Assembly: GCF_000613345.1 (NCBI RefSeq)
Contig: NZ_BAIS01000005.1
Span: forward strand, 1 to 64,000
Reading direction: 5' to 3'
DNA length: 64,000 nt
Source of the DNA: Prevotella disiens JCM 6334 = ATCC 29426
GTDB lineage: Bacteria > Bacteroidota > Bacteroidia > Bacteroidales > Bacteroidaceae
A program made the translations under genes and the position numbers. Numbering within the stretch: the stretch's first letter is position 1; each line of letters begins with the position of its first letter. This document shows, in pieces, positions 2,594 to 42,816 of this stretch. The notes under the pieces were generated by a model. That model saw only the letters and a list, made by a program, of their open reading frames with translations. It searched no databases and was not told the DNA's origin.

Positions 2594-4414
2594 ATGAAAA
2601 TAGAAGAGCAGATAACGACCGCAGCATTGGCTGCTGTGAAAGAACTATATGGTGCAGATGTACCAATACAGATGATTCAGTTGCAAAAGACAAAAGCAAA
2701 CTTTGAAGGAAACCTCACGCTTGTAACTTTCCCATTGCTGAAAACCTCACGAAAGAACCCTGAGGAAACTGCAAAAGAGATAGGTGCATACCTTAAAGAT
2801 AACTGTAATGCTATTTCAGATTACAATGTTGTCAAGGGATTTCTTAACCTTGTCATTGCACCAGCTGCATGGATTGGTCTGCTTAATGATATTCATGCCA
2901 ACGAAAAGTTTGGCGAAAAGCAAGTAACAGCCGATAGTCCACTCGCTATGGTGGAGTATTCATCGCCTAATACCAACAAACCCTTACACTTAGGACACGT
3001 CCGCAACAACCTTTTAGGGTGGTCGTTGTCTAAAATTATGGAAGCTAATGGCTACAAAGTAGTGAAGACCAACATCGTAAACGACCGTGGTATTCACATT
3101 TGTAAGTCGATGCTTGCATGGCAAAAGTGGGGCAATGGCATTACACCAGAGCAGGCTGGAAAGAAAGGCGACCACCTTATCGGTGATTTTTACGTTGCTT
3201 TCGACAAGCATTATCGTGAAGAATTGGCTACATTGACAGCACAATTCCAACAAGAAGGTTTAGATGAAGAGGCTGCAAAGGCAAAGGCTGAACAAGAATC
3301 GCCATTGATGAAAGAGGCACACGATATGCTTGTAAAGTGGGAAGCCAACGACCCTGAAGTGCGTGCATTGTGGAAAATGATGAACGATTGGGTGTATGCA
3401 GGCTTTGATGAAACCTATAAAGCACTCGGAGTAGGATTTGATAAAATTTATTACGAAAGTAATACTTATCTTGAAGGAAAGAAAAAGGTAGAAGAAGGAT
3501 TAGCAAAAGGTTTGTTCATTCGCAAAGAAGACAACTCTGTTTGGGCTGATTTAACCAACGAAGGCTTAGACCAAAAGCTCCTTTTACGCAGCGATGGCAC
3601 TTCGGTTTATATGACACAGGACATCGGAACTGCTGAAATGCGCTTCAAAGACTATCCTATCGACAAGATGATTTACGTCGTAGGCAACGAGCAAAACTAC
3701 CACTTCCAAGTGCTTTCAATCCTTTTAGACCGCTTAGGCTTTAAGTGGGGTAAAGATTTGGTACACTTCTCATACGGAATGGTGGAACTTCCAAATGGTA
3801 AAATGAAGAGTCGTGAGGGTACAGTTGTTGATGCTGACGACCTTGTAGTGTCTATGATTCAGAACGCTCGCACCCTTAGCGAAGACAAAGTCAATAAGTT
3901 GGAAGACATCACAGAGGAGGAAAAGAACAACATTGCACGCATTGTGGGCATGGGAGCATTAAAGTATTTCATCTTGAAAGTAGATGCTCGCAAGAATATG
4001 TTGTTCAATCCTGAGGAATCAATCGACTTTAATGGCAATACAGGTCCATTCATTCAATACACATACGCACGTATCCGCAGCATTCTTCGCAAGGCTAATG
4101 TACAAGGAATCAATATCCCTGCAAGCGTAGAAGCTAATGCTCCGCTCAACGAAAAGGAGATTGCGCTCATTCAAAAGATGAACGATTTTGGTGCAGCAGT
4201 GGCACAAGCAGGCGTTGATTACAGTCCAAGCGGCATTGCCAACTACTGCTATGAGCTTACAAAAGAGTTCAATCAATTCTACCACGATTACAGCATTTTG
4301 AATGCAGACACCGAAGCCGAAAAGACAACTCGCCTTGTTCTTGCTCAAAATGTAGCCAAAGTTATCAAGAATGGTATGGAACTTTTGGGCATCGAAGTGC
4401 CAGAACGTATGTAA
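2594..4414 (+). CDS. argS: Arginyl-tRNA synthetase
   Basis: Charges tRNA-Arg with arginine in the cytoplasm. The product is 606 residues, normal for bacterial ArgS. The class I signature HIGH appears as HLGH near residue 130 (SSPNTNKPLHLGHVRNN), and the KMSKS-like loop as KMKSREG near residue 400. The C-terminal anticodon-binding domain ends in the usual LLGIEVPERM. An N-terminal extension from a TTG at 2567 is rejected because that codon lies in the -7 promoter box; the ATG at 2594 matches the family start (MKIEEQI). A hairpin follows the stop. No sign of frameshift or transfer. Confidence 0.97.
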   Translation: MKIEEQITTAALAAVKELYGADVPIQMIQLQKTKANFEGNLTLVTFPLLKTSRKNPEETAKEIGAYLKDNCNAISDYNVVKGFLNLVIAPAAWIGLLNDIHANEKFGEKQVTADSPLAMVEYSSPNTNKPLHLGHVRNNLLGWSLSKIMEANGYKVVKTNIVNDRGIHICKSMLAWQKWGNGITPEQAGKKGDHLIGDFYVAFDKHYREELATLTAQFQQEGLDEEAAKAKAEQESPLMKEAHDMLVKWEANDPEVRALWKMMNDWVYAGFDETYKALGVGFDKIYYESNTYLEGKKKVEEGLAKGLFIRKEDNSVWADLTNEGLDQKLLLRSDGTSVYMTQDIGTAEMRFKDYPIDKMIYVVGNEQNYHFQVLSILLDRLGFKWGKDLVHFSYGMVELPNGKMKSREGTVVDADDLVVSMIQNARTLSEDKVNKLEDITEEEKNNIARIVGMGALKYFILKVDARKNMLFNPEESIDFNGNTGPFIQYTYARIRSILRKANVQGINIPASVEANAPLNEKEIALIQKMNDFGAAVAQAGVDYSPSGIANYCYELTKEFNQFYHDYSILNADTEAEKTTRLVLAQNVAKVIKNGMELLGIEVPERM

Positions 4415-7417: not shown

Positions 7418-8604
7418 TTATTTCAAAACACCGAGTTCTTTACCAACCTTGATAAATGCGTTGATACACTTATCTAATTGCTCACGATTATGACCAGCAG
7501 AGAGTTGGACACGGATACGAGCTTGTTCCTTTGGTACTACTGGATAGTAGAAACCTGTAACATAGATACCTTCTTCCAACATCTTAGAAGCATAAACTTG
7601 AGAAAGTTTAGCATCGTAAAGCATAACAGCGCAGATAGCACTTTGTGTAGGCTTAATATCGAAGCCTGCTGCCATCATCTTGTTACGGAAATAGTTTACG
7701 TTTTCAACCAACTTGTCGTGCAATTCGTTGCTTTCTTTCAACATCTTGAACACTTCAAGTGTAGCACCGATAATGCTTGGAGCCAATGAGTTAGAGAAAA
7801 GGTAAGGACGGCTGCGTTGACGGAGCAACTCAATGATTTCCTTACGACCAGTTGTGAAGCCACCAAGAGCACCACCAAAGGCCTTACCCAATGTACCTGT
7901 ATAAATATCCACGCGGTCGTAAGTGTTGCAAAGTTCGCTAACACCATGACCAGTAGCACCTACTACACCAGCAGAGTGGCTTTCGTCAACCATTACGAGT
8001 GCATCGTACTTTTCAGCGAGGTCGCAAATCTTATCGATAGGAGCCACGTTACCGTCCATAGAGAATACACCGTCAGTAACGATGATACGGAAACGTTGAG
8101 CCTGAGCCTCTTGTAAGCACTTCTCAAGTTCTTCCATGTTTGCATTAGCATAACGATAACGTTTAGCTTTGCAAAGGCGAACACCATCAATAATAGAAGC
8201 GTGGTTCAAAGAGTCAGAGATGATTGCGTCTTCATCGGTAAGCAATGGTTCGAAAACACCACCATTAGCATCGAAACAAGCAGCATAAAGGATTGTATCT
8301 TCTGTCTTAAAGTAGTCAGAGATAGCAGCTTCCAATTCCTTGTGAATATCTTGAGTACCGCAAATGAAGCGAACAGATGACATACCAAAGCCACGTTCGT
8401 CCATTATTTTCTTAGAGCCTCGATTAAACGTGGGTGATTAGAAAGACCAAGGTAGTTGTTTGCACAGAAGTTCAATACTTCTTTGCCCTTTACAGTGATA
8501 GCTGCTTGCTGTGGGCCTTCGATTATACGTTCTTCTTTGTAGAGTCCAGCATCTTTAATTTCTGCAATTGTTTTGCAAAGATGCTCTTTCATTTTACCAT
8601 ACAT
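7418..8604 (-). pseudogene. kbl: 2-amino-3-ketobutyrate CoA ligase (glycine C-acetyltransferase), interrupted by one frameshift
   Basis: PLP enzyme that cleaves 2-amino-3-oxobutyrate with CoA to glycine and acetyl-CoA, the second step of threonine breakdown; tdh, the first step, is divergent next door. The sequence is open in two parts: residues 1-66 (8604 to 8404) ending LIEALRK, and 328 residues from the ATG at 8404 starting MDERGFGMSS. Adding one base to the T4 run at 8407-8410 joins them into 395 residues, the usual Kbl length. The PLP region VDESHSAG and the lysine segment YTGTLGKAFGG are intact. The stop and the next ATG overlap as TAATG, so re-initiation could make a large fragment, but that would lack the N terminus. 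Sequencing error is a strong alternative. Confidence 0.9.
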
Positions 8605-8790: not shown

Positions 8791-9744
8791 ATGAAAAATA
8801 TTTTAGTAGTAGGCTCTACAGGTCAGATTGGCTCAGAGCTTGTAAGAGAATTACGTCGAATTTATGGTGGTAGCCATGTTGTTGCAGGTTTCATCAAAGG
8901 TGCAGAACCTACAGGTGAACTCTTAGAAGGCGGTCCTTCAGCAGAATGCGACGTTACAAATCCTGAAATGATTGCCGCAGTTGTAAAACAATACAACATC
9001 GACACAATCTACAATCTTGCTGCTCTTCTTTCTGTAGTAGCAGAAGGCAAACCACGTTTGGCATGGAAAATCGGTATCGATGGATTGTGGAATATCCTCG
9101 AAATCGCACGCGAAAACAATTGCGCAGTGTTTACTCCAAGTTCAATTGGCTCGTTCGGTCCAAGCACACCACACGATATGACTCCTCAAGACACCGTACA
9201 ACGCCCTGGCACTATCTATGGTGTATCAAAAGTAACAACTGAATTGCTTTCAGATTACTATCAAAAGAAGTACGGAGTAGATACTCGTTCAGTGCGCTTC
9301 CCTGGTATTATTTCTTACGTTACACCTCCAGGCGGTGGTACAACCGACTATGCTGTAGATATTTACTACTCTGCTGTGAAAGACGAAAAGTTTGTTTGCC
9401 CTATCAACAAGGGTACTTTCATGGACATGATGTACATGCCTGATGCTTTGCACGCAGCTATTTCATTGATGGAAGCCGACCCAACAAAGCTCATTCACCA
9501 TAACGGTTTCAATGTAGCTGCAATGAGTTTCGAGCCAGAACAAATCTTTGCTGAAATCAAGAAACACAAGCCAAACTTCGAAATGGTTTACGATGTAGAC
9601 CCATTGAAGCAAGGTATTGCTGACAGCTGGCCTGACCGCTTAGACGATTCATGCGCTCGTGCAGAATGGAACTGGAAGCCTGAATACGATTTGAGCAGCA
9701 TGACAGTTGATATGTTGAAGCAATTGAGCAAGAAACTCCTCTAA
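8791..9744 (+). CDS. tdh: L-threonine 3-dehydrogenase, SDR type (NAD-dependent epimerase fold)
   Basis: A 317-residue extended short-chain dehydrogenase. The NAD-binding glycine motif GSTGQIGSEL is at residues 7-16, the catalytic YGVSK motif (Tyr and Lys) follows at about 140-150 (PGTIYGVSKVTTELL), and RFPGIISY follows. This SDR type of threonine dehydrogenase, common in Bacteroidetes, oxidises L-threonine to 2-amino-3-oxobutyrate. Adjacent divergent kbl supports the assignment. Start chosen as the ATG at 8791 because the alternative TTG is in the -7 box. Two hairpins follow the gene. Confidence 0.9.
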   Translation: MKNILVVGSTGQIGSELVRELRRIYGGSHVVAGFIKGAEPTGELLEGGPSAECDVTNPEMIAAVVKQYNIDTIYNLAALLSVVAEGKPRLAWKIGIDGLWNILEIARENNCAVFTPSSIGSFGPSTPHDMTPQDTVQRPGTIYGVSKVTTELLSDYYQKKYGVDTRSVRFPGIISYVTPPGGGTTDYAVDIYYSAVKDEKFVCPINKGTFMDMMYMPDALHAAISLMEADPTKLIHHNGFNVAAMSFEPEQIFAEIKKHKPNFEMVYDVDPLKQGIADSWPDRLDDSCARAEWNWKPEYDLSSMTVDMLKQLSKKLL

Positions 9745-10605: not shown

Positions 10606-11778
10606 TTATAATTCTTTCGTATGTTCCACGTCTAATATGTGTGCTTTCCTAAATTCGCCTGGTGCGCAGCCACGCATCTTCTTAAAAAACTTATTAAACT
10701 GTACTTGTGAAGAGAAACCACAGGCAAAAGCAACTTCTTGAATGGTCTTGGCTCTCCCCAAAAGGTGGGTTTCTACCTCCTTTATAATGTAATCATCAAT
10801 GAGTTGTTTAGGTGTTCTACCAGCCACACGGCGCGTTATTTGTGCTAAATAGCGAGGGGTTACGTTGAGTTTTTTAGCATAAAAACGCACATCGGCATTT
10901 GTTTTATGGTGCATAGCAATGTCGTCCATAAGTTGATTGTACAATTCTAACGCTCTACTTGATATACTTTGCTGCGGAAAATCGCTACTATGGTCGAGCA
11001 ATTGGTGCGCTCCCAAATTGGAATCAGCCGACCTTAAAATGAGCTGTCGCATGTATTCTTGCGCCAATTCAATTGCTTTTTCCATGTCATTGCCCATACA
11101 AAGATAGACCGCCACGGCAGAAGTAAACGCTCCACCAGCCCCATGTGTGATGCGGTCAATAAATCCTGGACGTGTGTAAAAGCGTGCTTTTGCTGAATTT
11201 TCTTCTACTAAAACATCGGTAAGCGATTCTGTTGAGATGACACCGCCTTGTAAAACAACAGATTGGCAGCCCAATTTCATGATTTTTCGTGCCAATGCTT
11301 CCAACTCTTCGTTGTTGTGCGTGGTGTTGGTTTGTTGCATATAGGCAGCACTATCTTGTCTTATGATGACGATACTGCTAAGTGGAAATAAGCAAGAAAC
11401 CATGGCATCGACCACTTTTTGAGGCATCAATACGTTGCCTTTACTACTGATTACCACTGCATCTAAGACGACAAAACGTGGTGAATATTGCTTTAATAGT
11501 CGTTCAACCACCCATACTTGTTCTACACTTCTAAGCATTCCCACTTTAACAGCCGTAGGTTTAAGGTCGTTCAACACAGCATTGACCTGCATTTCCAATA
11601 CTTCCGCAGGAATATCGTACAAGTGTTGAATGTCTTCCGTGTCTTGTGCGGTTACCGAAGTGATAGCCGTCGCCGCATAAGCCCCCAACATGGTGATGGT
11701 TTTTATGTCGGCTTGAACGCCCGAACCACCCGTACTGTCAGAACCTGTAATTGTTAATATGGTCGCTTTCTTTTCCAC
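10606..11778 (-). CDS. ThiD-like (HMP kinase fold) domain fused to AraC-type DNA-binding domain; probable ligand-sensing regulator
   Basis: The 390-residue protein has two parts. Residues 1-265 follow ThiD (hydroxymethylpyrimidine kinase) from TGSDSTGGSGVQADIKT onward. Residues about 285-385 are an AraC double helix-turn-helix (YAKKLNVTPRYLAQ, then TIQEVAFACGFSSQVQFNKFFKK). Compared with the ordinary ThiD at 41995, the TPN motif is replaced by IRQ, DPVM by DAVV, IKGGH by LQGGV and GTGCT by GAGGA, so the catalytic Cys and the Lys of KGGH are gone while the substrate-pocket N terminus remains. This suggests a sensor without kinase activity. The ligand may be HMP, thiamine-related or a B6 vitamer; that is inference. 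The start is a GTG at 11778. Confidence 0.88.
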   Translation of the reverse strand: MEKKATILTITGSDSTGGSGVQADIKTITMLGAYAATAITSVTAQDTEDIQHLYDIPAEVLEMQVNAVLNDLKPTAVKVGMLRSVEQVWVVERLLKQYSPRFVVLDAVVISSKGNVLMPQKVVDAMVSCLFPLSSIVIIRQDSAAYMQQTNTTHNNEELEALARKIMKLGCQSVVLQGGVISTESLTDVLVEENSAKARFYTRPGFIDRITHGAGGAFTSAVAVYLCMGNDMEKAIELAQEYMRQLILRSADSNLGAHQLLDHSSDFPQQSISSRALELYNQLMDDIAMHHKTNADVRFYAKKLNVTPRYLAQITRRVAGRTPKQLIDDYIIKEVETHLLGRAKTIQEVAFACGFSSQVQFNKFFKKMRGCAPGEFRKAHILDVEHTKEL

Positions 11779-11893: not shown

Positions 11894-11901
11894 TTACCTT
11901 T
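11894..11901 (+). promoter_or_regulatory. -7 promoter box of the helicase gene
   Basis: TACCTTTG matches TAnnTTTG exactly and ends 10 bases before the ATG at 11912, implying a very short leader. Confidence 0.7.
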
Positions 11902-11911
11902 GCTGCATTAT

Positions 11912-13835
11912 ATGCAAAACGAAACGCCCATACAAGCCCTTCAAAAGCAAAAGTTACTCTTGCAAATGGAGTATTTTGCAGAAAAAGAAACATTTAGACG
12001 ACAAACTGAAACTATTGGTATTCAGCGAAAAGTGAAGCGTGGCGATGCTTGGTTTCCACTAAATGTGGGCAAAAGTTATTATAATTCGCTAAACCAACGT
12101 GTCGTTGAGGTGTTCAGAACCACCGACCACGACATTGAACACAACTTTGAATTTGGTCGTCCCATTGGCTTTTTTACCATTAAAAAGCAACCAGATAATG
12201 GTACAAAAGAGCAGCAAAAAATACATTATTACAACTTCACAGGCACGGTTTCTTACGTGGACGGCGAACGAATGGTAGTTGCTTTGCCCGATTCTGCTCC
12301 CGTTATCGATTTGCAAAATACCGACAATTCTGTTGGTTGCCAACTCTCTTTCGATGAAACCTCTTACCAAATGATGTTCGATGCCTTAGACCGTACCATC
12401 AAGGCAACGCATGGAAGATTAGCCTATCTACGCAATCTTTTTTATTCAAACCAAAAAGCTGAACGCCTCAACTTTGCTCCAATACGTTTGCCGTGGCTCA
12501 ATCCAACGCAAGAAAAAGCCGTAAACGAAGTGCTTTGGGCAAAAGATGTTGCCGTTGTTCATGGTCCCCCGGGAACAGGAAAGACCACAACGTTGGTCGA
12601 AGCCATTAACGAAACCTTGATGAAAGAGAGTCAAGTGTTGGTTTGCGCACAAAGTAACATGGCGGTAGACTGGATTTGTGAGAAACTCGTAGACCGTGGA
12701 ATCAATGTTTTGCGCATAGGAAATCCAACACGAGTGAACGACAAAATGCTCGGTTTCACCTACGAACGACGCTTCGAAGCTCACCCCGATTACGACCAAC
12801 TTTGGGCTATTCGTAAAGCCATACGACAGTTAAGAAACGGAAAAGGACGTGGAACGGACAGTTATCATCAGAAGATGGACAGACTGAAAAGTCGTGCTAC
12901 CGAACTCGAAATACGCATTAACAGTCAGCTTTTTGGCGAAGCTCGTGTCATAGCATCTACCTTGTAGGCTCAAATAGTCGTATCATGGAGGGACAGAAGT
13001 TCTCTACGCTCTTCATTGATGAGGCTGCACAAGCGTTGGAAGCAGCGTGTTGGATTCCTATTCGCCGTGCCTCTCGTGTCATTTTTGCAGGCGACCACTG
13101 CCAATTACCGCCTACTGTGAAGAGCATAGCCGCCCTAAAAGCTGATTTAGGCAAAACTCTTATGGAGCGAATTGTGGAAAACAAGCCCGAAGTAGTTACG
13201 CTTTTGAAAGTGCAATACCGCATGAACGAGCAAATTATGCGTTTCTCTTCCGACTGGTTTTATCACGGAGAAGTGGAGAGTGCGCCACAAATAAAATATC
13301 GTGGCATATTGGATTACGACCACCCCATGCTTTGGTTCGACACAAGCGAGATAGAAGTGGGCAACGATGAACTACCTTTCACGAGCAATTTGTAGGCGAA
13401 AGCTACGGGCGCATTAACAAAGGCGAGGCTGAACTTACCCTGAAAACTTTGCAAGACTACTTTACAAAGATTGGTAAACAGCGCATACTTGACGAGCGCA
13501 TAGATGTTGGTGTCATTTCGCCCTACCGTGCGCAAGTGCAATACCTCCGCCGTTTAATCAAGAAACGTGAGTTTTTCAAACCCTATCGTGCGCTCATCAG
13601 TGTGAATACAGTCGATGGATTTCAAGGACAAGAACGTGATGTGATTCTCATTTCTATGGTACGTGCCAACGAAAATGGCGAAATAGGATTCTTAAAAGAC
13701 CTCCGTCGCATGAACGTAGCCATTACTCGAGCGCGCATGAAACTCATTATACTCGGAAATGCTGCCACCATGAGCCAACACCCTTTCTACAAAAGGCTTT
13801 TCGAATATATTCAACACATCAATAACAACGAATAA
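11912..13835 (+). pseudogene. Superfamily I DNA/RNA helicase (IGHMBP2/Dna2-like AAA ATPase), interrupted by two frameshifts
   Basis: Three consecutive open frames together encode one UPF1/IGHMBP2-type helicase. The first (to 12967) carries Walker A HGPPGTGKTTTLVE near residue 220 and ends RVIASTL. The second (to 13395) has FIDEAAQALE (motif II, DEAA) and GDHCQLPPT (motif III). The third (from about 13400 to 13835) has VNTVDGFQGQERDVI (motif V) and NVAITRAR (motif VI). Restoring one G beside 12964 and one C beside 13380 gives a continuous 641-residue protein, plausible for the family. As read, no single fragment has both nucleotide-binding and motif V/VI parts. The start at 11912 follows the -7 box. 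Sequence error or real decay cannot be separated here. Confidence 0.88.
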
Positions 13836-22581: not shown

Positions 22582-23154
22582 TTATTTCAACATACTTGCG
22601 AACAATTCGTGTATGCGAGTGTCCTCTCCCAACTCTGGGTGAAACGCTGTAACGAGCTGATTGCCTTGGCGTGCTGCGACAATATGTCCGTCCACTTCGG
22701 CTAAAACCTCAACTCCCTCGCCAACCTTATCAATGTAAGGCGCACGAATAAAAGTCATTGGCACAGGTTCGGCAATGCCCTTCATCGGAGCAATGGCTGC
22801 AAAACTGCCCATTTGTCTGCCGTAAGCGTTGCGACAAGTTGAAATATTCATGGTTGCAAAGCGGTCGTATGGACTTTTAGCGTCCTCAACTTCCTTTGAA
22901 AGAATTATCAATCCTGCGCAAGTACCATACACTGGCAATCCGTTTTCAATGTCTTTCTTGATAGGTTCAAACAAGTTGAGTTCATGTAATAGCTTCAACA
23001 TCACGGTACTTTCTCCACCAGGGATAATTAGACCGTCCTTTTGTTTGTCCCAATCAGATGCTTGGCGCACTTCAAATGTTTCGTGTCCTAAGCGTTGCAT
23101 TATTTTTTCATGCTCAGCAAATGACCCTTGAAGTGCTAATATAGCAATTTTCAT
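22582..23154 (-). CDS. pdxT: Pyridoxal 5'-phosphate synthase glutaminase subunit
   Basis: A 190-residue class I glutaminase that supplies ammonia to PdxS for PLP synthesis. The nucleophile Cys lies in YGTCAGLI, the oxyanion motif is PGGESTVM, and the His-Glu pair is in TAFHPELG. The frame is open to 23190 but the first 12 codons overlap the pdxS end; the ATG at 23154 (MKIAILALQGSFAEH) is the family start and lies 4 bases after the pdxS stop. Co-transcribed with pdxS. Confidence 0.96.
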   Translation of the reverse strand: MKIAILALQGSFAEHEKIMQRLGHETFEVRQASDWDKQKDGLIIPGGESTVMLKLLHELNLFEPIKKDIENGLPVYGTCAGLIILSKEVEDAKSPYDRFATMNISTCRNAYGRQMGSFAAIAPMKGIAEPVPMTFIRAPYIDKVGEGVEVLAEVDGHIVAARQGNQLVTAFHPELGEDTRIHELFASMLK

Positions 23155-23158
23155 ACGT

Positions 23159-24034
23159 TTATTTGCCACGTTCAGCCATGAGAACAGCAATCTCGTTCTC
23201 GTTGATACCTACCATTGCTTCGCCAAGGTCTTCGCTCAATTTAGCAATCATCTTAGCATCTTGGTAGTTGGTAACTGCTTGAACGATAGCACGAGCGCGC
23301 TTTTCTGGGTTGCCAGACTTGAAGATACCAGAGCCAACGAATACGCCTTCAGCACCTAATTGCATCATCAAAGCAGCGTCAGCAGGAGTTGCAACACCAC
23401 CAGCAGCGAAGTTTACAACAGGAAGTTTGCCGTTATCGTGAACATATTTCACCAAATCGTAAGGCGCACGGAGTTGTTTTGCTGCTTCGTACAATTCGTC
23501 TTCACCTAAAGAAGTGAGGCGACGCATTTCTGTTTGAATCATGCGCATGTGGCGAACAGCCTGAATGATGTCGCCAGTGCCTGGTTCACCCTTTGTACGA
23601 ATCATTGTTGCACCTTCAGCGATACGGCGCAAAGCCTCGCCTAAGTCCTTAGCACCACACACGAATGGTACTTCAAATTCGTTCTTGTTGATGTGGAAAA
23701 TATCGTCAGCAGGAGAAAGAACCTCGCTCTCGTCGATGTAATCAATTTCAATGGCTTGAAGAAGTTGTGCTTCAACGAAGTGTCCGATACGAACTTTTGC
23801 CATTACAGGAATGCTCACAGCCTCTTGAATGCCACGAATCATCTTAGGGTCGCTCATACGAGAAACACCACCAGCAGCACGAATATCAGCAGGAATACGT
23901 TCCAAAGCCATTACTGCGCAAGCACCAGCAGCCTCTGCGATACGAGCTTGCTCTGGAGTTGTAACGTCCATAATAACACCACCTTTAAGCATTTGAGCCA
24001 AATTACGGTTCAATTCTTGTCTGTTCTCTTTCAT
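23159..24034 (-). CDS. pdxS: Pyridoxal 5'-phosphate synthase lyase subunit
   Basis: A 291-residue (beta/alpha)8 enzyme that makes PLP from ribose 5-phosphate, glyceraldehyde 3-phosphate and ammonia from PdxT. Family hallmarks: [17 protein letters not shown] near residue 18, [14 protein letters not shown], the catalytic Lys in [13 protein letters not shown], and [14 protein letters not shown]. Length is typical. It has the best-defined minus-strand promoter of the window (-33 and -7 boxes 20 bases apart at 24090-24121). This cell therefore makes PLP by the deoxyxylulose-independent route. Confidence 0.97.
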
Positions 24035-24089
24035 AGTTATATTTCTTTTTTATTTGTTTTATTTATGTCATGATGCGTAAAATGCAGCG

Positions 24090-24121
24090 CAAAGATACCA
24101 TAATTTATTGTATTAGCCAAA
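24090..24121 (-). promoter_or_regulatory. Promoter of pdxS-pdxT
   Basis: On the minus strand TTTG (24121-24118) is followed after 20 bases by TATCTTTG (24097-24090), a full Bacteroidetes promoter. The ATG at 24034 is 55 bases further on. Confidence 0.8.
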
Positions 24122-24317
24122 TGTTTATTCTGAAATGGCTAAATAATGTGTACAAAATGGAAAGGGAATTGTGTTTTTCAGTTTTCCAAATAAAATAAAT
24201 TGAATGCTTATATATATGCAAAAAGTGGAGAAATAGGCGCAAATTTTAACACGAAATCAGTCGTATTCTAATCCATTAGCTATCAGCAAGTTACACCAAA
24301 ACCATTTTTTGTCCTCA

Positions 24318-24378
24318 AAAAACCTATTGTTTTGCGCTTCAAAACAATAGGTTTTGGAACGCAAAACAGCCTATTTTG
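24318..24378. repeat. 22-bp-period intergenic repeat array, 3 units
   Basis: Units: AAAAACCTATTGTTTTG at 24318, CAAAACAATAGGTTTTG at 24340 and CAAAACAGCCTATTTTG at 24362, with spacers CGCTT and GAACG. The first two are inverse copies and could form a 16-bp stem. The array sits between the divergent pdxS and pyrE promoters; the remaining gap (24035-24475) holds only these promoters. Confidence 0.85.
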
Positions 24379-24419
24379 AAATGTATTCGACGAAAGAAGT
24401 AAAATACATTACGGTTCGT

Positions 24420-24450
24420 TTTGAATATCATGCGAAAATAATTACCTTTG
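24420..24450 (+). promoter_or_regulatory. Promoter of pyrE
   Basis: TTTG at 24420-24423 is followed after 19 bases by TACCTTTG at 24443-24450. The pyrE ATG is 25 bases downstream. Confidence 0.85.
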
Positions 24451-24475
24451 TAACAAAATAAAAAAAATACTACTA

Positions 24476-25108
24476 ATGGAAAATTTAAAGAAAGCATTTG
24501 CAGGCAAACTTTTGGGCATTAAAGCCATAAAGTTGCAACCTAACGACCCATTTACATGGGCAAGTGGCTGGAAATCACCATTCTATTGCGATAATCGCAA
24601 AACTTTGTCTTACCACGATGTGCGTTCGTTTGTAAAACTCGAACTCGTTCATGCCATCTTAGCTAACTTCCCTGAAGCTACCGCAGTAGCAGGTGTGGCT
24701 ACGGGAGCTATCGCTCAAGGCGCATTGGTGGCTGAAGAATTGGCTTTGCCATACGCTTATGTGCGTCCAAAACCAAAAGATCACGGTATGAAAAACCAAA
24801 TAGAAGGCGAAATTCCACAAGGTTCTAAGGTGGTAGTAGTAGAAGATTTGATTTCTACGGGCGGCTCTTCGCTCAAAGCAGTAGTAGCATTGCGCGAGGC
24901 AGGCTTCGAAGTTGTCGGCATGGTAGCATCTTACACCTACGGTTTCCCTATCGCCGAACAAGCCTTCAAGGACGCAAATGTGAAACTTGTAACCTTGACC
25001 GACTACCAAAACGTAGTGGAAAAAGCAATGGAAATAGGTTATATTAAAGAAGAGGACATTCCTATGCTCGACGAATGGCGTAAGGACCCTGAAAATTGGA
25101 AGAAATAA
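24476..25108 (+). CDS. pyrE: Orotate phosphoribosyltransferase
   Basis: A 210-residue type I phosphoribosyltransferase that makes orotidine 5'-phosphate in de novo pyrimidine synthesis. The PRPP-binding motif VVVVEDLISTGGSS is at about residues 118-131, with KPKDHGMKNQIEG as the flexible loop. Length is typical. The stop codon abuts the start of a SRPBCC-like gene (one of the duplicated copies), so pyrE and that gene are probably co-transcribed from the strong promoter at 24420. Confidence 0.96.
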   Translation: MENLKKAFAGKLLGIKAIKLQPNDPFTWASGWKSPFYCDNRKTLSYHDVRSFVKLELVHAILANFPEATAVAGVATGAIAQGALVAEELALPYAYVRPKPKDHGMKNQIEGEIPQGSKVVVVEDLISTGGSSLKAVVALREAGFEVVGMVASYTYGFPIAEQAFKDANVKLVTLTDYQNVVEKAMEIGYIKEEDIPMLDEWRKDPENWKK

Positions 25109-41794: not shown

Positions 41795-41822
41795 CATGCA
41801 GATAAACTTTCGGATTAACCGA

Positions 41823-41903
41823 AAAAGGGGTGCCACCTTATTTGGGTGAGCTGAGATTATACCCGTATAACCTGATGCAGATAATGCTGCCGTAGGAAGT
41901 GCG
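41823..41903 (+). ncRNA. TPP riboswitch (THI element)
   Basis: GGGGTGCC, GCTGAGATTATACCCG, ACCTGATGCAGATAATGC and CGTAGGAA are in the canonical order of the thiamine pyrophosphate aptamer. It lies 92 bases before the thiD start and downstream of the -7 box; the remaining part of the 41619-41994 gap would hold the expression platform. It controls the thi genes that follow in response to thiamine pyrophosphate. Confidence 0.95.
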
Positions 41904-41994
41904 AATATAGAATTTGCGTTTATCTATCCGTTTTTGGTGTATTCCCCCTTGTTGTTCGGTCGTTCGAAAGTAATGTTTGTTACTTTAAGGACGC

Positions 41995-42816
41995 ATGATG
42001 CACTATGTAAAAACTTTGACCATTGCAGGTTCCGATAGTGGCGGTGGAGCTGGAATACAGGCTGATATTAAAACAATGTCGGCTTTAGGCTGCTACGCTT
42101 CATCGGTGATAACGGCAGTTACCGCACAAAACACAAAGCAGGTTTTCGATATTCAAAACATTAATCCTTCGGTTGTTGAGGCTCAACTACGAGCTGTATT
42201 GACCGATTTGCGCCCCAATGCTATTAAAATAGGTATGGTGGGGAGTGCTGAAAATATGGAAAGCATTGCCAAAACCTTATCCGAAGTAAGCGATATTCCG
42301 CTGATTATAGACCCTGTTATGGTTTCTACTTCGGGCAATAAGCTCATGGACGATAGTGCGGTTCATACTTTTTGCCAGCAACTTTTACCCCTTGCTACCT
42401 TGCTAACGCCCAACATTCCAGAAGCAGAGGTGTTGGCTGGAATGCCAATCACATCGGTTTCAGACATTGATGAAGCAGCAATGCGAATTTTAAAACGCGG
42501 TTGCAACGCCCTATTAATAAAAGGTGGGCATGTGGAAGGAAGCATGAAAACCGACCGATTGTATTTCTCTAACGGCAGTGAACCTATGGTTTTCAAAGCT
42601 GAAAGCATTGAAACACGCAACACACACGGCACAGGCTGCACACTTTCGTCGGCGATTACGGCTCTCTTAGCCCGTGGCTTACAATTGGAAGATGCGGTTG
42701 CAATGGCAAAAAACTATGTTTCAAACGCTTTAAAAGAAGGTGCTGATGTAGAAATTGGCAGTGGACACGGAGCAGTAAACCATTTTTATAATCCTGAAAA
42801 ACTAATCAAGCAATGA
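41995..42816 (+). CDS. thiD: Hydroxymethylpyrimidine / phosphomethylpyrimidine kinase
   Basis: A 273-residue ThiD that phosphorylates HMP and HMP-P to HMP-PP. All family motifs are present: AGSDSGGGAGIQADIKT, VIDPVMVSTSG, LLTPNIPEAE, LIKGGHVEG and NTHGTGCTLSSAI with the catalytic Cys. It thus contrasts with the ThiD-like domain of the AraC fusion at 10606. Two ATGs (41995 and 41998) are possible starts. The stop overlaps the thiE start by four bases. First gene after the TPP riboswitch. Confidence 0.96.
   Translation: MMHYVKTLTIAGSDSGGGAGIQADIKTMSALGCYASSVITAVTAQNTKQVFDIQNINPSVVEAQLRAVLTDLRPNAIKIGMVGSAENMESIAKTLSEVSDIPLIIDPVMVSTSGNKLMDDSAVHTFCQQLLPLATLLTPNIPEAEVLAGMPITSVSDIDEAAMRILKRGCNALLIKGGHVEGSMKTDRLYFSNGSEPMVFKAESIETRNTHGTGCTLSSAITALLARGLQLEDAVAMAKNYVSNALKEGADVEIGSGHGAVNHFYNPEKLIKQ

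Follow-up and report, generated by a model that had tools for sequence, protein, structure and literature searches.

The window analysed here is a stretch of 64,000 nucleotides from Prevotella disiens, in which one gene encodes a protein joining a ThiD-like domain to an AraC-type helix-turn-helix (HTH) domain. The gene, its two domains and the ThiD sequence used for comparison are:

10606..11778, (-) strand: fusion gene, ThiD-like pseudokinase plus AraC-type HTH (ORF, Pfam, family of 45)
11023..11739, (-) strand: ThiD-like domain, residues 14-252 (Phos_pyr_kin, 195.8 bits; model superposed on ThiD)
10645..10881, (-) strand: AraC-type HTH_18 domain, residues 300-378 (76.4 bits, cut-off 33.6)
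41995..42816, (+) strand: intact ThiD, comparison sequence (TIGR00097, 332 bits)

Domains of the fusion protein and decay of its kinase part

The reading frame at 10606-11778 was confirmed in place and strand, and runs from a GTG start to give a product of 390 aa. Pfam matches were Phos_pyr_kin (cut-off 27), HTH_18 and HTH_AraC only, and the equivalog model for HMP-P kinase (TIGR00097) was narrowly missed, at 201.9 bits against a cut-off of 204.95. A Pfam scan is enough to reveal the two-domain architecture; the proposals made here concern the function of the protein, its tie to pdxST, and a candidate operator. No description of a ThiD-AraC fusion, or of an AraC-type regulator of pdxST, was found in the open-licence PMC literature, outside which one may exist.

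An AlphaFold2 model of the fusion protein (pLDDT 81.8, pTM 0.67, linker 250-270 not modelled) was superposed on ThiD structure 8g1h (Z 36.3, rmsd 1.6, 248 aligned), on ThiD with HMP (1jxi, Z 33.2), and on a ThiD-type pyridoxal kinase with pyridoxal (4c5l, Z 32.2), bearing out an earlier suggestion that the domain has the fold of the intact ThiD at 41995. The fold is shared with ThiD and pyridoxal kinases alike, and alone it cannot identify the ligand. The HTH region was modelled as helices 297-303, 308-319, 323-340, 346-352, and 358-369; it is C-terminal and contains two HTH motifs, the AraC/XylS feature, in agreement with the double HTH first reported for this gene.

For the kinase part, the alignment comprised 45 distinct members of the fusion family and 9 ThiD proteins, one of them from E. 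coli K-12; residue positions are given in E. coli ThiD numbering. The Cys in GTGC, the Lys in KGGH and the Asn in TPN, which we take to be the ATP and catalysis residues of ThiD, have disappeared from the fusions: Cys213, Lys176, Asn139, Pro138, and Thr211 are kept in 0/45 fusions and in 9/9 ThiD proteins, and the same counts hold for the strings GTGC, TPN, and K[GA]GH. The presumed substrate-side residues Gly11, Asp23, Gln44, Lys77, His209, and Gly210 are retained in 45/45, with Met80 in 35/45 (Leu in the other 10) and Val107 in 28/45; the same pocket residues are found in 9/9 or 8/9 of the true ThiD sequences. These retained residues do not separate pyridoxal from HMP.

In the window protein, TPN has become IRQ, IKGGH has become LQGGV, GTGCT has become GAGGA, and the N-terminal GSDSTGGSGVQADIKT loop is intact. 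All four motif changes listed in the preliminary description are present, along with the intact substrate-side motif that it noted, but one of them, DPVM to DAVV, is weak evidence, as 30/45 relatives retain the Pro and E. coli ThiD has Thr there. Conservation of the catalytic Cys or Lys, which the same description had named as counter-evidence, was found in 0/45 of the aligned fusions. Since the same pattern of loss and retention recurs in 45 distinct relatives, a sequencing accident is excluded.

Decay has gone further in some members. The interval between positions 108 and 209 holds 103 residues in the window protein and 37-76 in 12/45 members, whose ATP side is shorter by 27-66 residues. 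One such truncated member (the L019 protein) was still well modelled (pLDDT 86.8), and its model superposes on ThiD (7r8y) with Z 28.5, rmsd 1.8, and 197 aligned residues. Maximum-likelihood analysis of the domain placed the 45 fusions and the 9 ThiD proteins on opposite sides of a single branch, with support 100/100. Judged by the residues tested, the kinase domain looks dead, and the fusion is apparently not a ThiD enzyme.

Two observations lie beside this gene and family. Adjoining the fusion gene in the window, a helicase gene at 11900-13835 (+) is read as three ORFs (11900-12967, 12985-13395, 13449-13835), the first part matching TIGR00376; a relative carries it as a single ORF of 637 aa (L061, 1538-3451), and the split in the window is a broken gene or an assembly error. 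One genome (G053) has a second fusion of the short type (L049, 8273-9187 (-)); its product of 304 aa shares 44% identity with the L019 protein, and no pdxS was recognised next to it.

Co-occurrence with pdxS and gene order

The window also contains the two genes for PLP synthase, about 11 kb from the fusion gene:

23159..24034, (-) strand: pdxS, PLP synthase subunit, proposed target (PF01680, E 1.4e-107)
22582..23154, (-) strand: pdxT, glutaminase subunit, proposed target, in one operon with pdxS (position after pdxS, and sequence)

The start of pdxT was set at the ATG at 23154; the ORF list starts it from a TTG at 23190. By our reading of the matches, the fusion occurs in 22 of 60 relatives, and these are the same 22 that have pdxS over the cut-off. 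One further genome (G027) retains only about residues 4-90 of the fusion (L066, about 8110-8355) and was for that reason left out of the 22; no pdxS was found in it, a pattern that looks as if fusion and pdxS had been lost together.

At the genus level, a single-piece full-length fusion was found, among the matches listed, in 49/398 genomes, and pdxS was present in 49/49 of these and in 180/398 overall. A further 39 genomes, in which the listed match was N-terminal and split (short members; the count was made by eye), all appear in the pdxS list. At least 8 of the 180 pdxS genomes gave no convincing fusion match, which here means not found, as at most 5 candidates per genome were scored. At the order level, the full-length fusion was found in 6/393 genomes, and pdxS in 6/6 of these versus 19/393 overall; the five fusion genomes other than the window come from four other families, and fusion and pdxS are adjacent in all of them. 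These co-occurrence counts are not independent, as the genomes are related, and some assemblies in the sample are incomplete. Four candidates for a fusion without pdxS were examined and rejected: two are ThiD without an HTH (G660, G461), and the other two, a contig-end piece in G048 and a protein of G047, are ThiD that have TPN together with KAG or KGG.

Fusion and pdxS are usually neighbours. In 34 of the 49 full-length genomes listed, they lie at most 2 kb apart (29 in the same orientation with the fusion first, 3 convergent and 2 divergent); 6 have them on the same contig more than 2 kb apart, the window included, 6 have them on different contigs, and for the remaining 3 the place of pdxS was not listed. 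Close relatives that bear a species name are Prevotella aurantiaca, pallens, brunnea, and ihumii, and in P. brunnea the fusion (71% identical) lies end to end with pdxT-pdxS. Since relatives keep the fusion with the genes of B6 synthesis, a B6 sensor is the most likely reading rather than a thiamin regulator.

Candidate operator upstream of pdxS

Upstream of pdxS, a conserved block and a promoter were located:

24117..24163, (-) strand: candidate operator, conserved block upstream of pdxS (footprint in relatives, matrix scans, de novo motif)
24090..24097, (-) strand: pdxS promoter -7 box TATCTTTG, 20 nt after the -33 TTTG

Conservation extends over about 47 bp in the window and in five closely related species, and the block terminates in the -33 TTTG (24118-24121 in the window), with a GAAT-type box at 24127-24131. 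The pair of -33 TTTG and -7 box is presumably the Bacteroidota promoter form. Scanning the region before pdxS for known RNA elements (cmscan, 24000-24520) gave only six weak miRNA-type matches (E 0.2-0.93), far under gathering scores.

When the sampled loci were scanned with a matrix of six sites, two new sites exceeded 16 bits, both just upstream of pdxS, and the region before the fusion gene gave no match above 16 bits in the window or its close relatives. A pattern built from the very six sites that it retrieves (up to 3 mismatches) occurred once in each of 6/8 whole genomes, that is, without a second site at that stringency; it was absent from the other two (G001, G063), and the reversed pattern was absent from all 8. 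In genomes where fusion and pdxST form an operon, a related element lies ahead of the fusion gene.

In a blind test of 29 new genomes with two earlier matrices, matches of at least 12 bits fell at the right place in 16/29 and at a wrong place in 2/29 (L120 and L129, 15.5 and 16.5 bits), and 11/29 stayed below 12 bits. As controls, pdxS loci were taken from 6 of the 8 genomes in which no fusion had been found, picked since the place of pdxS was listed for them; none of the six showed such a site, the best scores with the two blind matrices being -8.2 and 6.7. In a leave-one-out check, 8/10 sites ranked 0-6, L055 ranked 42, and L062 ranked 4401.

A de novo motif search on 53 genomes recovered the promoter and reached a total information of 998.9 from 150 starts, compared with 466.7-484.8 in 8 shuffles given 60 starts. 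Widened to 46 columns, the motif takes in GGAAC-like letters directly upstream, at a fixed distance from the promoter, with GAA[CT] in that position in 44/53 sites, TTTG at -7 in 51/53, and -33-like letters in 40/53. Ranked against 1.32 million background positions, 29/53 sites were beaten by none and 41/53 by at most 5, a ranking that is not fully blind, as the sites were picked by a motif search that included them. Three loci (L053, L107, L111) were removed as near copies before ranking, so true sites may remain in the background. Seven poor sites were each beaten by at least 53 positions (L075, L048, L055, L120, L121, L064, L079); for L079, a match lies farther upstream, at 3766-3812, beyond the 350 nt scanned. 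One control (L136) scored 15.8 bits with the 36-column model, a promoter-like match that exceeds several fusion genomes but lacks the GAA[CT] box, and fell to 4.4 bits in the wide model; the other five controls reached at most 5.4 bits in the narrow model and lay below zero in the wide one.

AraC operators are direct repeats spaced by about 21 bp. A second GAAC-type half-site stands exactly 21 bp upstream in 9/53 sites, and the rest show one clear half-site. The element follows the promoter that drives pdxS: it is placed before the fusion gene when that gene closely heads the operon, in the intergenic gap in several genomes, and before pdxS if fusion and pdxS are separated. This tracking is the strongest reason to think that pdxST is a target of the protein and not just its neighbour. 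The preliminary description claimed no proven operator; the sequence comparisons now provide a candidate one.

Two side observations concern these upstream regions. In G063, an element of some 200 bp bounded by inverted repeats (TTTAACCCAAATCGGTCATTAG type) is found between the pdxS promoter and start codon, and again directly before the fusion gene (L079, 3407-3608; L039, 7800-8002); it is possibly a MITE, and a similar stretch is visible by eye in L074. In G016, the operator-like element (L057, about 9640-9690) is upstream of the fusion gene at a distance of 483 nt, and the intervening DNA contains a repeated gccgaagagtaaaaaa-type tract.

Proposed function and relation to known systems

The fusion protein is probably a vitamin B6-responsive transcription regulator of pdxST, composed of a decayed domain of the ThiD/pyridoxal-kinase type and an AraC-type HTH. 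Control of pdxST by the protein is well supported at the level of genome comparison. The ligand would be a B6 vitamer (pyridoxal or PLP), as suggested by the target and by structures of the same fold bound to pyridoxal or PLP (4c5l and 4ywr, by their titles). Activation of pdxST when B6 is low is suggested by the position of the element, the habits of AraC-type proteins, and the logic of PdxR. The HTH would bind the element ahead of pdxS and contact RNA polymerase at the -33 region, so that scarce B6 would lead to activation, and pyridoxal or PLP in the former substrate pocket would end it; in operons headed by the regulator, its own expression would come under its control as well. With an operator and a ligand proposed, the reading is directly testable. 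On balance, we also favour a broader reading, in which a family of B6-sensing pseudokinases, unrelated to PdxR, arose once in Bacteroidales, controls pdxST, and preserves a staged conversion from enzyme to sensor, as far as members that lack much of the ATP side of the ribokinase fold, with the tested substrate-side invariants intact.

Repression of pdxST, released or engaged by a B6 vitamer, is a rather unlikely alternative that draws on the identical association and candidate-operator evidence; the element extends to the -33 box, where a bound protein could block polymerase too. Against it, AraC-type proteins bound just upstream of and touching the -33/-35 region are usually activators. PdxR, according to PMC5320631, activates pdxST in its unliganded state, which also speaks against repression. 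Control of pdxST in response to HMP or another metabolite would suit a pocket whose retained residues are also those of true ThiD; we regard it as unlikely, given that the target is B6 synthesis and that proteins of the same fold bind pyridoxal or PLP.

The preliminary description left the ligand as a pyrimidine or a B6-type compound and named both thi and pdx genes. Of this, the vitamin-responsive regulator stands as most likely, with B6 and pdxST favoured over the pyrimidine and thi side. A regulator of thi genes with HMP or HMP-P as its ligand would fit a domain whose nearest relative is ThiD and a window that contains a thi operon (thiD-thiE-thiC and a Thi4-like gene), but that operon is preceded by a riboswitch:

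41815..41915, (+) strand: TPP riboswitch before the thi operon (RF00059, 52.7 bits, gathering score 54.3)

At 52.7 bits, it is overlooked by a default gathering scan. As thiC is present in only 9 of the 22 fusion genomes among the 60 relatives, and is thus not tracked, and as the thi operon has its own riboswitch, a thiamin regulon under the fusion was rejected; the candidate element sits before pdxS, and the thiamin reading is very improbable. A fusion that is still an active HMP or B6 kinase and also regulates could cite the complete fold of full-length members and the universal His209-Gly210, but the absence of Cys213, Lys176, Asn139, and the three strings from all 45 aligned fusions, and the shortened ATP side of 12 members, make this the least credible of all.

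If the B6-regulator reading is right, many Prevotella-type bacteria relying on PdxST would have their B6 regulator identified, the family would be an independent answer to the task handled by PdxR in other organisms, and its members would offer a natural graded series from kinase to sensor.

Compared with ThiD and ThiD-type pyridoxal kinases (1jxi, 8g1h, 4c5l, 2i5b), the fusion has the common fold (Z 32-36) and shares with ThiD enzymes the six invariant substrate-side residues, but differs in its missing catalytic Cys, Lys176, and Asn139, its attached HTH, and, in part of the family, its reduced ATP side. With the AraC/XylS family it has the C-terminal HTH_18 in common; the sensor domain of AraC is of the cupin type, whereas that of the fusion has a ribokinase-type fold. 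Archaeal ThiR, a thiamin phosphate synthase-like domain with an HTH, is likewise a vitamin enzyme domain turned sensor, with another enzyme domain, another vitamin, and another HTH. PdxR, named among the regulons used in PMC6593275, is a MocR/GntR-type, PLP-responsive activator that, like the fusion, neighbours pdxST, and the same job and logic are proposed for the fusion, following the description of PdxR in PMC5320631. The GntR-type HTH and aminotransferase-like domain of PdxR are absent from the Pfam matches of the fusion, which has instead a kinase-fold sensor and an AraC-type DNA-binding part. The fusion would thus take over the job of a MocR-type PdxR with an unrelated sensor, and is best read as its non-orthologous counterpart.
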